Positions 3,814 through 9,422 of a stretch of 64,000 nucleotides of DNA are shown in pieces; positions within the stretch are counted from its first letter, which is position 1, and each line of letters starts with the position of its first letter. The translations under genes were made by a program, and so were the position numbers. The notes under the pieces were generated by a model. It was not told where the DNA came from. It worked only from the letters and a program-made list of their open reading frames with translations, and ran no database searches. Origin of the DNA: Pirellulimonas nuda (GTDB taxonomy: Bacteria > Planctomycetota > Planctomycetia > Pirellulales > Lacipirellulaceae); contig NZ_CP036291.1 in assembly GCF_007750855.1 (NCBI RefSeq), forward strand, positions 5,492,905 to 5,556,904. Reading direction: 5' to 3'.

Positions 3814-6800
3814 TCAAGAATCCGCGGGCCCGAAGGCCAGACCCCAAGACGCCCTCACGCCGATCTCCAAGCCCTGGTCGATGTGCTCCCTGGCGTCTTT
3901 CGCTCCAGGCGAGCTGACCGCCGTGTGCCGCTCGTGCCCCGAGGCTTCTTCGGCCATTTCAGCTAGTGCGTTACGCCTCGCTGCATCGCTGGCGGCGCCC
4001 AGTTCTGCTGCCGTGTGCCCGGCGACGACCGAGGCAGACCGGAACGCGGAAGGTAGACCGGGCGCCGTACTCATCGAGGTGAGCGCGATCAAGTCGGCCT
4101 CACTCAATGCCGGCGCCGCATTCGGGAGGATCTTAACGAACTGGCCAGAGATGAACCGTTTGATCCACAGGTCGCTCCCGCTTCTATAGAACGCGTTCTG
4201 CGTTGCGGCGTTGAGCGCCGCCATGCTGCCAACCTCTTGGCCGCTGTTGGGGATCATCGTCTGACCGATGCCCACGTAACGGAAGGTGGCAGACCCGGTC
4301 GCCGGCGTCCCGCTCGCGACCTGGAGCCGGATCTGGAACCCGGCGGACGAGCTCCCCAGGCCGCTGGGGAAACGGACCGTGTAGTGCCCGTCGTCCAGCT
4401 TTGCCGAGATCCGGTTTCGCGTAGTGTTGCTGGCAGTCGTAGCGGTCTCGCCGGCGGGCGAAGTGTACTCCATAGCCGCCATGCCTAGCGAAGCGTTGTT
4501 GGGGTTCAGCGTGCTGATGAATAGCTCGGCGTAAAGGTTGTCCGTCACCCAGGCGTTCCACCCGGCCGGCTTGTAGTCGGAGCCGTCGTTGTCGTGCATG
4601 AATGGGACATTGGGAACGACGGTGCGGCCGGCCACCCCGGTAAGCGAACCATCCACATCCAGCAGAACAGCCGAGTAGGCAGCCGTGTTCGCGAGCCCAA
4701 AGTTGGGGCTGCCGTCGGCGTCCGAGATGCTGACATGACTGGCCGATCCGTCGTTCTCGAAGGAGACGCCGCTGACCATGTGATGGGTGCGCTTCTCAGT
4801 GCCGCCATTGGAGCGGAAGGTATGGGCGTTGGCCGCCGCGTATCCCGCGAAGTGGCTGCCGCTGAGCGTGCTTGCGCCGTCGTACAGCGAGTGGCCGGTG
4901 ACGGTCTTCGACGCGTCGGCGTTGCCTCGGCTGTGACCGACGAACAGGGAACTGGTTACCTCCTGATAGAAGGTGTTGAAAGAGCTTGTCCCGCTGTCGG
5001 CGTAGCGGTTCTCGTTGAAGACGCCGCGCGGCGCCCGGTGGTACAGCGCGGCGCCGGTGTGCTTGTACCCGGTGAAGAAGTTAACTACCGGCTCGGTCGG
5101 AGGATCGTAGCTGTTCGAGGCGCCCGGGTCGATGTCGGATCCCCGATCGAAGGTCAGCCCGACTGGGGACGAATGCGTCGTGTTGTAGTCGAACTGGCGG
5201 AGGTTGGTCTGTCGGGGGGTCAGGCCGTTGTACAGTCCGGTGTCTTTCGACAGCCCGAGCACGCCCGCCGGCAACACGAACCAGAAGCCGGTCCCCTCGG
5301 CACCGGCAGAAACGTTGCCGACCCAGGTGTTGTCAGGATTTGTGATCCAGAAGGCGGCCGAGTGGATGAAGCGGTTGTCGGTGTTCTCTCCGGTGTCGTG
5401 CGAGCTCTCGCCGTTGCCGCTACGGGGCGCCTCGCCGTTCACTTTGCCGTCTGGCCCTCGGGTAACGCCCGGCACTACGAACGGATCGTTCGACGACTCG
5501 CCCCCTCCCACCTGATGAATGCCGAAAGCAATGTTGGCTAAAAGCCGGTTGCCCGTCTCTGCGCCGTCCTCCATGAAGAAGCCGTGGCCGTGGATGTCGT
5601 GCAAGACGTTGTCCTGCAGCAGCACGTTCTGCGTGCCGTGGAGGGTGACGCCGCGGTTGTTCGAGTTCGTGACGCTGGAGTTTCGCAGCACGTCACCCGA
5701 CCGGTCGCCGGCGACGTGCCAGTGGACAGGGTAGCGTCCCAGGCGCCCCGTCTGCCCCATTCTGTCGAACTGGACCGCGTCGAGCGAGATCTGGCCCGCG
5801 GAACCCATCACCATGACGTGTCCGCCGACCCCGTCGGAGGCGCCGCTGTTCCATTTGGCCCGGTCGCCGAAGCTATTGTCGGTGTCGGCGTTCTCGTCCC
5901 CTTGAATCCGGATCGTGCGGTTCAACACGGCCACCTCGGCCCGCAGATCGAGGTCCCACGTGCGCTGGGGGTTGCTGTAGGTCTCGATCTCGCCGTAGTG
6001 GCGGCGGGCGAGCGGCTGGTTGAGGGTGAGGCGGGTCGTTCCGTCGCCCAGATCGGTAGCCGCCGCAATGACGCGGACCTCCTGATCCGCGTAGTCGTAG
6101 GAAGAGCTCGCGATGACGATCTGGTCGCCCACCTTCCAGTTGAGGGAGCCGTCCGAAGCGGCGCTCGTTACGCCATCAAAGTTGCGTTCGATCACGTTCT
6201 CGACTGGGATCGACGCAGCGCCAACTTCTGCGGTTGCGGCGAGCTTGGTGAACGACAGCTTCTCTTCGCCGAAAAACTGCAATCGGCCGCCGCCGGCAGC
6301 CATGAGGAAGGCGTTGTTGTCCGAAACTTGCAGGGCGCCCGTGGCGGTTTCAATGATAAAGTCGGCGTTGGGGTCGTCGCCCGTGAGCGTGAGGGTAAAC
6401 ACCCCGGCGTCGAAGCGGTCTGCCGCGGTCCCTACTTGGAACAGGCCGCCGCTGTTCACGTGGACCCAGTCGGCGGTGAGCGACTTGTCTGCCGTGGCAA
6501 CGCCGCTGTCGGCGTCGAGCACCAGCGCGACGTGGCGCCACGCGCCGGGCGTGACGCCCGTCTGCAGGATCCAATCGCCGGTCCAGCCGCTCTCGGAGGT
6601 CGTGGCGTTCCAGGCGCCGGCGTACAGTGTGTCCCCTTCCAGATAGATCGCGAGCCCGCGGCCCCCACCCCCTTGCTTGTAGAGGACCTGCCGCCCGACC
6701 GTATCGTCCGCGTTGAACCACAGCGAGATTGTCTTCTCAGGGAAGATGCCGTCGTTCAGGTCGACCGAGTTGCCGACTTGTAGCACGCTGGAGAGGCCAT

Positions 6801-7755
6801 CGAGTACTAGCGCGCCGCCGGCCAGCACAGCCCCGCCCGCAACCGTGCCGTTGTCGCTGACCGCGCCGCTGGCCGCCACATCGCGGGCCGACGGCGGCGC
6901 CGAAGTCGCGCCGACATAGTCTCGCCAGAGCGAGTAATCCGCAGCGTCAACAATGCCGTCGCCGTTCCCGTCGGCCCCGTCGAACGGGCTCGCGACCGTC
7001 GACCCGAAGGCGTTACGCCAGACGTTGTAGTCGTCTTGATCGATCGTCTCATTGCGGTCGTAGTCCCCAGCAAGCAAGTCGCCATCAAAGGTCCACCGCG
7101 CTACGGCGTCGTCCGAGGCCAGCGACGAACCATCGCTCCGCAAACTGCCGGCAATCTGCTGGACTTCCGCCGCGCTCAGGGCGCGGTTATAGCTGACGAC
7201 CGAATCGATCTGCCCGTCGAAGTAGGCGCCGCTGCTGATGACGCCGGTGTGCGTAAGCAATGCGCCGTTGGCGCCCCCGATGCCGATCGCCGTGAGGTGC
7301 GCCCAGAGCTGTGAACCCTGGACGGATCCGACCAACTGACCATCGTAGTACAGCTTCAAACGATCGGGGGCGACGACCGCGGGATTCGAAGAGACAGCGT
7401 TCAGGTTCTCAGAGGCCGCCAGCTTGCCGTGGACAACCAGCTCCTTCGCAACGTGGTCGATGCCCGTGAGGTCGACCGTGACGCCCGTTGATACGATCGC
7501 CCGCGTCGTGGCGTCGGGGATCCCGTTGTCCCAAGTTGCGAGGTCGTGCCAGGGGCCGCTCTGCACGGCCGTGGTCGCCGAGAGGGCGAGGCGAGGCTCC
7601 AGTGCGAGGAATAGTCGACGCCGGGGGGATCCCCGCCGGCGGTCGCAGCGCCGACGGCGCCAAAGGGACCGTCCGGCGTGCGTGATTAGGTCCCAGAACC
7701 GCTGCTGCGCTGCATGCATCCTGGAAGGGCGGTGCTGGCATCGTGTCGATCTCAA
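3814..7755 (-). CDS. Exported G8-domain, CEMIP-like beta-helix protein with LEPR-XLL leader, LamG and dockerin inserts
   Basis: A 1313-residue protein. After an arginine-rich leader comes LEPRLALSA (52-60), the LEPR-XLL motif of planctomycete surface proteins. A G8 domain begins at 66-113 (HDLATWDNGIP, ELVVHGKLAAS) and appears to resume at about 421 (DKSLTADWVHVNSGG). Between lie a LamG C-terminal half (117-205), a LamG N-terminal half (216-418) and two dockerin-like EF-hand repeats (229-287). From about 600 the chain looks like the parallel beta-helix of CEMIP/TMEM2-type proteins: RYPVHWHVAGD, RGVTLHGTQNVLLQDNVLHD, GHGFFMEDGAETGN. Relatives bind or cleave hyaluronan; activity here is inference. 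The start is TTG at 7755 with AAGGA upstream; ATG at 7719 is an alternative. No PEP-CTERM is visible. It lies downstream of the sulfatase at 7827. Confidence 0.8.
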   Translation of the reverse strand: MRSTRCQHRPSRMHAAQQRFWDLITHAGRSLWRRRRCDRRRGSPRRRLFLALEPRLALSATTAVQSGPWHDLATWDNGIPDATTRAIVSTGVTVDLTGIDHVAKELVVHGKLAASENLNAVSSNPAVVAPDRLKLYYDGQLVGSVQGSQLWAHLTAIGIGGANGALLTHTGVISSGAYFDGQIDSVVSYNRALSAAEVQQIAGSLRSDGSSLASDDAVARWTFDGDLLAGDYDRNETIDQDDYNVWRNAFGSTVASPFDGADGNGDGIVDAADYSLWRDYVGATSAPPSARDVAASGAVSDNGTVAGGAVLAGGALVLDGLSSVLQVGNSVDLNDGIFPEKTISLWFNADDTVGRQVLYKQGGGGRGLAIYLEGDTLYAGAWNATTSESGWTGDWILQTGVTPGAWRHVALVLDADSGVATADKSLTADWVHVNSGGLFQVGTAADRFDAGVFTLTLTGDDPNADFIIETATGALQVSDNNAFLMAAGGGRLQFFGEEKLSFTKLAATAEVGAASIPVENVIERNFDGVTSAASDGSLNWKVGDQIVIASSSYDYADQEVRVIAAATDLGDGTTRLTLNQPLARRHYGEIETYSNPQRTWDLDLRAEVAVLNRTIRIQGDENADTDNSFGDRAKWNSGASDGVGGHVMVMGSAGQISLDAVQFDRMGQTGRLGRYPVHWHVAGDRSGDVLRNSSVTNSNNRGVTLHGTQNVLLQDNVLHDIHGHGFFMEDGAETGNRLLANIAFGIHQVGGGESSNDPFVVPGVTRGPDGKVNGEAPRSGNGESSHDTGENTDNRFIHSAAFWITNPDNTWVGNVSAGAEGTGFWFVLPAGVLGLSKDTGLYNGLTPRQTNLRQFDYNTTHSSPVGLTFDRGSDIDPGASNSYDPPTEPVVNFFTGYKHTGAALYHRAPRGVFNENRYADSGTSSFNTFYQEVTSSLFVGHSRGNADASKTVTGHSLYDGASTLSGSHFAGYAAANAHTFRSNGGTEKRTHHMVSGVSFENDGSASHVSISDADGSPNFGLANTAAYSAVLLDVDGSLTGVAGRTVVPNVPFMHDNDGSDYKPAGWNAWVTDNLYAELFISTLNPNNASLGMAAMEYTSPAGETATTASNTTRNRISAKLDDGHYTVRFPSGLGSSSAGFQIRLQVASGTPATGSATFRYVGIGQTMIPNSGQEVGSMAALNAATQNAFYRSGSDLWIKRFISGQFVKILPNAAPALSEADLIALTSMSTAPGLPSAFRSASVVAGHTAAELGAASDAARRNALAEMAEEASGHERHTAVSSPGAKDAREHIDQGLEIGVRASWGLAFGPADS

Positions 7756-7826: not shown

Positions 7827-9380
7827 CTAGCGAGAGTCTGCCTTGCGACCCGCGTTAGCCGCGGCGACTGGCCTTTCGCCCGCCTTGATCAGGGAGGTTA
7901 GTTTGGCCGGAGTAATCGCGGCGTCCGATGTGTCGGCCGCATGCTTGATCAGGGCCCTGAGCAACCGCGTCCGCACGCCGGCCGAGTCGGGGTCGTCGGC
8001 GAGATTGTTCACTTCGTAGGGGTCGGCCTGCACGTCGTAGAGCTCTAGCTCGGCCGGCTGGAACTCACCTAGTTCCGAGCAGGTCTCATCCAGCAAGCGG
8101 TACGCCTCGGGGTGCTCTTCGCGATTGGCGACGACACTGTCGAACGAGCGGTTGTGCCAGGGGGCGTTGCCGTCACCCGGCGTGACCCAGTACTGCAGGT
8201 CTGCATTGAAGTCGCGCCGGCCGTCTATATCGCTGCGGTAGATCAGCCGATACCGCCCGTCGTAAATTGCACGCTCTTCCATCACCACGGCGCCAGCATG
8301 AAGCCCGTGCGTCACTTCCCCGACAACTGTCTCACGGCCAGGTAGGCTTGTGCTCACCCCGTCCAGCAGCGGCAGCAGCGACTGGCCGTGCAGGCCATTG
8401 GGAACTTCGATGCCGGCGTACTGCAGGATGGTCGGCATCAGGTCGATCTCGCTGACCAGCTCGTCGGAGACCACTCCCTGTTGGACGCCCGGGCCACGCA
8501 CCGCCAGGGGCACGCGGAGGCCGAAGTCGTAGGGGGACATTTTGCCTCGGTGGAACGCCGGCCCGTGGTCCCCCATGAAGATCACGATCGTCTGCCCCGC
8601 TTGACCGCTTCGCTCGAGCCCGGCGAGCACGTCGCCGACGTGCTCGTCGGCGCGCTCGACGGCGTCGAGGTACTCTGCCCAGTCTTGCCGCACCTCGGGT
8701 GTGTCTGGCAGGAACGCCGGGACTTCGACCTTGGTACGTTCAACGGTCAGCTTGACTTCGTCGCCGTTGCGGAAGGGCCGGTGGGGCTGCTCGATGTTGC
8801 AGAAGTAGAACCAGGGCCGCCCCTCGGCGGTCGCCTCGCCGGCAAACTGCTCGACCTTATCGCCGGTGGCGACACGGTCCCAGCGGTCGTAGGGGAACTT
8901 GCTGTTCGGAGCGACGTGAAGCTTGTCGCTCACCCCCGTGAAGTACCCTTGTTTCTTCAGCAACTCCACCAGCGTCGGGGTGTCGTCCGGCACGCGCAGC
9001 CGTTGGTAGAACCCATTCGTACGCTGGTCTTCAGACAGCTCCGAGTCCGGCTTGAAGTAATTGACGGTATTGGTAGCGATGCCGTTGGCGTGTGAGTGTA
9101 AACCGGTGTAGATGTTCGCCTTCGACGCGGAGCAGACGGGGTAATTGACGAAAGCCTCGGCAAAGTAGACTCCCTGATTTGCGATGGAGTCCATGTGGGG
9201 CGTTTCGACGCCGGGCGTCCCGACGAAGCCGAGTTGGGCCCCCTGGTCCTCGGTCAGGATGAACAAGAAGTTGGGATGCGGCTGCGCGGCGTCCGTGGCG
9301 GACGTCGTTGCGAGCGCTCCAAGACAGACCGCTGCAACGACGTGTCTTGCTGCCGTGGTTCGGACTCGAGACGATTGCAT
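7827..9380 (-). CDS. Type I sulfatase, heparan N-sulfatase-like (S1_8 type)
   Basis: An alkaline-phosphatase-fold sulfatase of 517 residues. A signal peptide (AAVCLGALATTSATDA) is followed by PNFLFILTEDQG, the first metal-binding strand, and by VCSASKANIYTG, the formylglycine motif with Cys83 as the residue to be converted. A lysine stands where the classical C-x-[PA]-x-R motif has arginine. GDHGPAFHRGK supplies further active-site residues. The start is ATG at 9380, because it directly precedes the signal peptide; a TTG at 9422 is less likely. The gene follows the DUF1559 gene within 50 bases and likely shares its transcript. Probable substrate: an N- or O-sulfated polysaccharide (inference). 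Confidence 0.88.
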   Translation of the reverse strand: MQSSRVRTTAARHVVAAVCLGALATTSATDAAQPHPNFLFILTEDQGAQLGFVGTPGVETPHMDSIANQGVYFAEAFVNYPVCSASKANIYTGLHSHANGIATNTVNYFKPDSELSEDQRTNGFYQRLRVPDDTPTLVELLKKQGYFTGVSDKLHVAPNSKFPYDRWDRVATGDKVEQFAGEATAEGRPWFYFCNIEQPHRPFRNGDEVKLTVERTKVEVPAFLPDTPEVRQDWAEYLDAVERADEHVGDVLAGLERSGQAGQTIVIFMGDHGPAFHRGKMSPYDFGLRVPLAVRGPGVQQGVVSDELVSEIDLMPTILQYAGIEVPNGLHGQSLLPLLDGVSTSLPGRETVVGEVTHGLHAGAVVMEERAIYDGRYRLIYRSDIDGRRDFNADLQYWVTPGDGNAPWHNRSFDSVVANREEHPEAYRLLDETCSELGEFQPAELELYDVQADPYEVNNLADDPDSAGVRTRLLRALIKHAADTSDAAITPAKLTSLIKAGERPVAAANAGRKADSR

Positions 9381-9422
9381 TGTTAACCGTGTGGGAAATG
9401 CGGAGGGCGCTCGGCGGCGCAA

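Follow-up and report, generated by a model that had tools for sequence, protein, structure and literature searches.

The gene at positions 3814–7755 of the window, the 64,000-nucleotide stretch of Pirellulimonas nuda DNA analysed here, encodes a secreted CEMIP/TMEM2-like right-handed β-helix protein. By sequence, its G8 region is broken by a single, complete LamG domain that is circularly permuted, the C-terminal half (residues 117–205) standing ahead of the N-terminal half (residues 216–418). We assign a probability of about 0.85 to the whole account, according to which a β-helix host bears a complete permuted LamG in a loop of its first coils, a dockerin is seated on the LamG, and the LamG acts as a sugar-binding graft. 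The anatomy, the permuted order, its conservation in a second genome, the re-use of the loop in relatives and the mosaics among paralogues of a related genome are read from profiles and alignments.

The frame of 1313 codons has no internal stop and lies in a 6.6 Mb genome assembled as one contig. The family assignment rests on the CEMIP β-helix (PF24606) with a G8 region ahead of it, here in two pieces (Table 1). This is the only CEMIP-like gene in the source genome, and the relatives found include those of Bythopirellula polymerisocia and Botrimarina hoheduenensis (Lacipirellulaceae). A BslA-like hydrophobin considered for residues 1082–1160 (4276–4512, minus strand) was rejected: the single-sequence matches were weak (E ~1e-3), and a profile of relatives gave no support. 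On the same strand, 71 bp upstream, stands a sulfatase gene, itself preceded by a DUF1559 gene. The sulfatase and the 3814–7755 gene are possibly co-transcribed partners. An adjacent sulfatase would suit a sulfated substrate; sulfatases are found near several homologues as well, in inconsistent positions, and the pairing is not constant among relatives.

Table 1. Features of the 3814–7755 gene and its neighbour; residues are numbered from the start of the longest frame, positions are those of the window
Feature	Residues	Positions	Strand	Basis or remark
Whole gene, longest frame		3814..7755	-	start TTG at 7755; likelier ATG at 7719 (residue 13)
G8 first half, first β-helix strands	60-116	7408..7578	-	own HMM 1-58, 67 bits; AlphaFold pLDDT 92-97
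LamG C-terminal half and linker, placed first	117-215	7111..7407	-	Laminin_G_3 89-151 at 129-199; rotation scan
LamG N-terminal edge strand VARWTFDGD, before dockerin	216-226	7078..7110	-	alignment with L096 and ordinary LamGs
Dockerin type I, two EF-hand loops	227-290	6886..7077	-	Dockerin_1 229-277; alignment
LamG N-terminal half, remainder, ending in WRHVALVLDADS	291-417	6505..6885	-	Laminin_G_3 12-93; PDB 4qvs 36-149, E 7.4e-5
G8 second half	418-520	6196..6504	-	Pfam G8 47-124 at 422-506; AlphaFold pLDDT 92-98
CEMIP β-helix	643-863	5167..5829	-	Pfam PF24606, E 1.6e-59
Sulfatase gene		7827..9422	-	Pfam Sulfatase and SGSH_C

The G8 region is broken by the insert at residues 114–420. Pfam reports its second half only; the first half (residues 61–118) was detected by our own HMM, built on uninterrupted homologues, and the two parts jointly cover the region once (own HMM 1–58 plus Pfam G8 47–124). 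In uninterrupted homologues Pfam G8 1–124 aligns in one piece, at residues 62–194 of L021 and 110–238 of L024. The earlier note had G8 halting at about residue 113 and resuming at about 421, and its residue numbers proved correct to within about three residues; Pfam, our own HMM and the uninterrupted homologues alike rule out a G8 that is already complete ahead of residue 117. The insertion into G8 that it proposed thus stands on the HMM evidence, but its picture of a split domain needs revision. In the crystal structure of TMEM2, G8 forms the first coils of the β-helix and has no separate fold (PMC10206443), so the insert is a graft onto a solenoid loop and not a globular domain split in two. 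An AlphaFold model of residues 58–996 reaches a pLDDT of 92–98 in both G8 halves and across most of the flanking helix despite the insert, and it supports a predicted G8/helix rejoined around the insert.

Whether the LamG is permuted, as had been proposed, was examined on the unaltered protein and by reordering. In the Pfam alignment of the unaltered protein, Laminin_G_3 positions 89–151 (residues 129–199) precede positions 12–93, which lie farther downstream. When set in the conventional order, with their sequence unaltered, the halves can be aligned over their full length to ordinary LamGs of the source genome and other Pirellulales (E ~1e-30 to 1e-47), among them L079 (41% identity over 239 aa, E 1e-47) and L171 (E 1e-36), and the main surplus in the alignment falls at the point at which the chain enters and leaves the LamG. 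We also rotated the insert, freed of the dockerin, by four-residue steps and scored each rotation with an HMM of natural LamGs only. The native order scored 149.5 bits over profile positions 1–149, and the score peaked at 196.9 bits, over positions 1–227 of 227, with the cut in the linker LRSDGSSLASDDAV. The natural LamGs of this HMM were collected by the reordered query, which makes the scan somewhat circular; Pfam independently yields the same order. For the homologue L096, described below, the score rose from 137 to 190 bits. Both proteins thus hold the complete set of profile positions in an order other than the conventional strand order, and the permutation claimed in the earlier note is confirmed by Pfam and by the scan. 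Two separate complete LamGs are excluded at the profile level, since the halves match different portions of a single LamG profile.

The reordered insert aligns over the whole domain with LamG/concanavalin A-like proteins (Laminin_G_3; PDB 4qvs, an S-layer domain-containing protein), and profile A3, two rows of which are reordered sequences, matches 4qvs residues 9–220 with E 3.6e-14. It differs from an ordinary LamG in that its new termini lie in a β-hairpin, between WRHVALVLDADSG and DRLKLYYDGQ, in that a linker of some 15 residues connects the old termini, and in that a dockerin follows the first strand. GC and GC3 of the insert resemble those of the rest of the gene. A search of viral contigs for LamG relatives returned one distant locus only.

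The order of C-terminal half, linker and N-terminal half matches the middle of a tandem LamG pair, and LamGs are common in the source genome, often in tandem. The insert might accordingly be the remnant of a former tandem, made of the first domain's C-terminal half and the second domain's N-terminal half and decayed, so that it no longer forms one fold. Such a reading would agree with the low confidence of the LamG models: the insert alone gave a pTM of 0.68 and a mean pLDDT of 58, pLDDT over the LamG was low in the model of residues 58–996 too, and Foldseek of the insert model with mean pLDDT 58 found no significant match. At most five alignment rows cover the LamG, and we attribute the poor modelling to this shortage of related rows. 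Between them the halves account for each position of one LamG profile a single time, with neither loss nor overlap, and the insert has been kept open and is 47% identical at full length in a second genome, as expected of a folded domain. We therefore regard a decayed remnant as quite improbable and retain a complete permuted LamG, a putative β-sandwich.

The second genome is that of an uncultured Pirellulales (G037), an independent metagenome assembly, in which the homologue L096 (L023/L096) carries the permuted LamG in the same loop, in an arrangement internal to its contig. This bears on the chance that the arrangement is an artefact of assembly or rearrangement, since misassembly at repeats can swap halves and LamGs and dockerins are repeated in the source genome. 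The presence of the same permuted LamG in a second, independent assembly rules out an assembly artefact; the source genome is a single contig, the frame is uninterrupted, and no near-identical copies occur among the fetched loci of that genome, so that we leave an artefact of either kind only a vanishingly small chance. No convincing target-site duplications or flanking direct repeats were seen around the insert. Recent copying from the other dockerins or LamGs of the genome was considered and dropped, as the best DNA matches among the fetched loci were short and only ~73–86% identical.

The dockerin lies within the LamG N-terminal half, where the earlier note had located it, flanked by the LamG sequences VARWTFDGDLL and RDVAASGAVSDNGT, that is, after the first LamG strand. 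Its Pfam match scores 17.5 bits, under the curated cut-off of 22.9 bits. The dockerin (residues 229–283) retains DYDRNETIDQDD and DGNGDGIVDAAD as intact EF-hand loops, each calcium loop is followed by a helix as in type I dockerins, and many similar dockerins occur in the genome, at least 64 of them above the Pfam cut-off. No match to the Pfam cohesin family PF00963 was found in the source genome, so a cohesin partner of the cellulosome type is absent at that level. At the dockerin site L096 reads FDRGNL-NDIARGDSIDDNGT and has no dockerin. The nest of three modules claimed at the outset is thus real, but it is layered and not the product of a single event: either the dockerin joined a LamG already in place, in the lineage of the 3814–7755 protein, or it was lost in that of L096.

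The descent of the insert was addressed with a tree of the G8/helix sequences without inserts. The 3814–7755 protein falls into a clade of eight rows (support 100/99) whose other seven members have no LamG insert and from which L096 is absent. A sister relationship between the 3814–7755 protein and L096 was weakly rejected (AU p 0.029), and since the two are not sisters, it is not established that both simply inherited the insert from a shared ancestor. These results would suit a permuted LamG that entered the loop twice independently, or moved ready-made between lineages, in place of one inherited once and then lost. We nevertheless consider such double entry or transfer unlikely, because there is no rejection (p 0.30) of a clade of nine that unites the 3814–7755 protein with L096 and the seven LamG-free proteins, so that a single gain and a single loss suffice, and because recombination between paralogues could also explain the tree. 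The LamG insert may have been gained once and lost once, gained twice, or transferred.

To survey inserts at this site, we built an HMM of G8 and helix free of interruptions and used it to read the loop in some 90 homologous frames. The comparison with insert-free homologues that had been suggested was informative: in most of the frames the loop (HMM 58–61) is short and empty, as it is in the Bythopirellula homologue. Elsewhere it contains a dockerin alone (L022 and L030, two paralogues of G006), a 182-residue module (the second copy in L088, a Fuerstiella metagenome protein), or two tandem copies of a ~140-residue module (L105, Flavobacteriaceae, minus strand). Neither of the last two kinds of module has a convincing Pfam match. 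L088 is a 2401-aa frame with two complete G8 plus β-helix copies, and only the second has the loop insert. Thus the insert does occupy a G8 loop, but the site is not unique to the 3814–7755 protein, given the three other kinds of module found there in relatives. From this variety we conclude that modules have landed in the loop repeatedly and that it is a natural grafting site. A second insertion site, at HMM 230, holds dockerins in L024, L025, L031 and L108.

Two pairs of paralogues bear on how such inserts travel. In G025, L024 and L031 are 93% identical in DNA along a 1668-bp stretch that takes in G8, the dockerin insert and the first part of the helix; beyond it their protein identity falls to ~50%. 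In G006, the protein identity of L022 and L030 reaches its maximum, 82–85%, around the inserted dockerin, a weaker peak than that of G025. These mosaics suggest that inserts spread by recombination, and recombination between paralogues is a plausible carrier. For the source genome we can only infer it, because that genome has one CEMIP-like gene and the mosaics lie in a related genome. Tentatively, and with more doubt than conviction, the first-coil loop may be viewed as a general docking bay in which unrelated modules have been placed repeatedly and exchanged between paralogues, and which gained the permuted LamG more than once or received it ready-made.

A working model can be drawn from these observations. 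The β-helix would be a polysaccharide-degrading enzyme, judging by family and fold. The permuted LamG occupies an inter-strand loop among the first coils and would be a sugar-binding graft held fixed beside the helix. The dockerin, probably a later addition where the first LamG strand gives way to a loop, may serve as a calcium-dependent docking module or as a spacer. Duplication followed by trimming, the usual route, probably produced the permutation, a tandem LamG pair having been cut down to C1–N2, and the loop of the helix would gain and lose modules with the aid of recombination between paralogous genes. What results is a natural case of layered domain grafting, with living relatives in which the loop is empty, holds a dockerin only, holds the permuted LamG only, or holds LamG and dockerin. 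These matched states offer tests of three points: the tolerance of a solenoid loop for an additional 50 to 300 residues, a possible benefit of permutation for insertion, and the effect that grafting a glycan-binding module may have on the target of a TMEM2-like β-helix.

Among known systems, TMEM2 (CEMIP2) has the same G8 plus β-helix host. The 3814–7755 protein matches it with E 8e-34 in phmmer and 2.7e-101 with the family profile, and the TMEM2 ectodomain (PDB 8c6i) is the best PDB match of the AlphaFold model (E 9.5e-28). TMEM2, too, bears an inserted domain among its first helix coils, in its case a lectin-like one (PMC10206443). That domain, of the POMGNT1-stem type, comes after three turns and lies at chain positions 171–330; the insert described here comes earlier, within G8, and consists of a permuted LamG and a dockerin. 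After the third turn the 3814–7755 protein has no lectin-like (GG) domain, and 8c6i 171–330 corresponds to only 7 residues (517–525). Mutation of TMEM2 Arg265, which lies in the lectin-like domain, lowers hyaluronan degradation, and the location of the TMEM2 active site has been described as an open question (PMC10206443). Because the lectin-like domain with Arg265 is absent here, the hyaluronidase function cannot be transferred to the 3814–7755 protein.

Nested and permuted insertions as such are already known: an inserted domain of RNA polymerase is likewise circularly permuted, and nesting has been reported to six levels (PMC13114784). In our literature search, G8 and LamG were not found in combination, and circular permutation and LamG co-occurred in a single paper, on the immunoglobulin fold. 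The present case differs from that of RNA polymerase in host and in module, and its loop holds unrelated modules in relatives of the protein.
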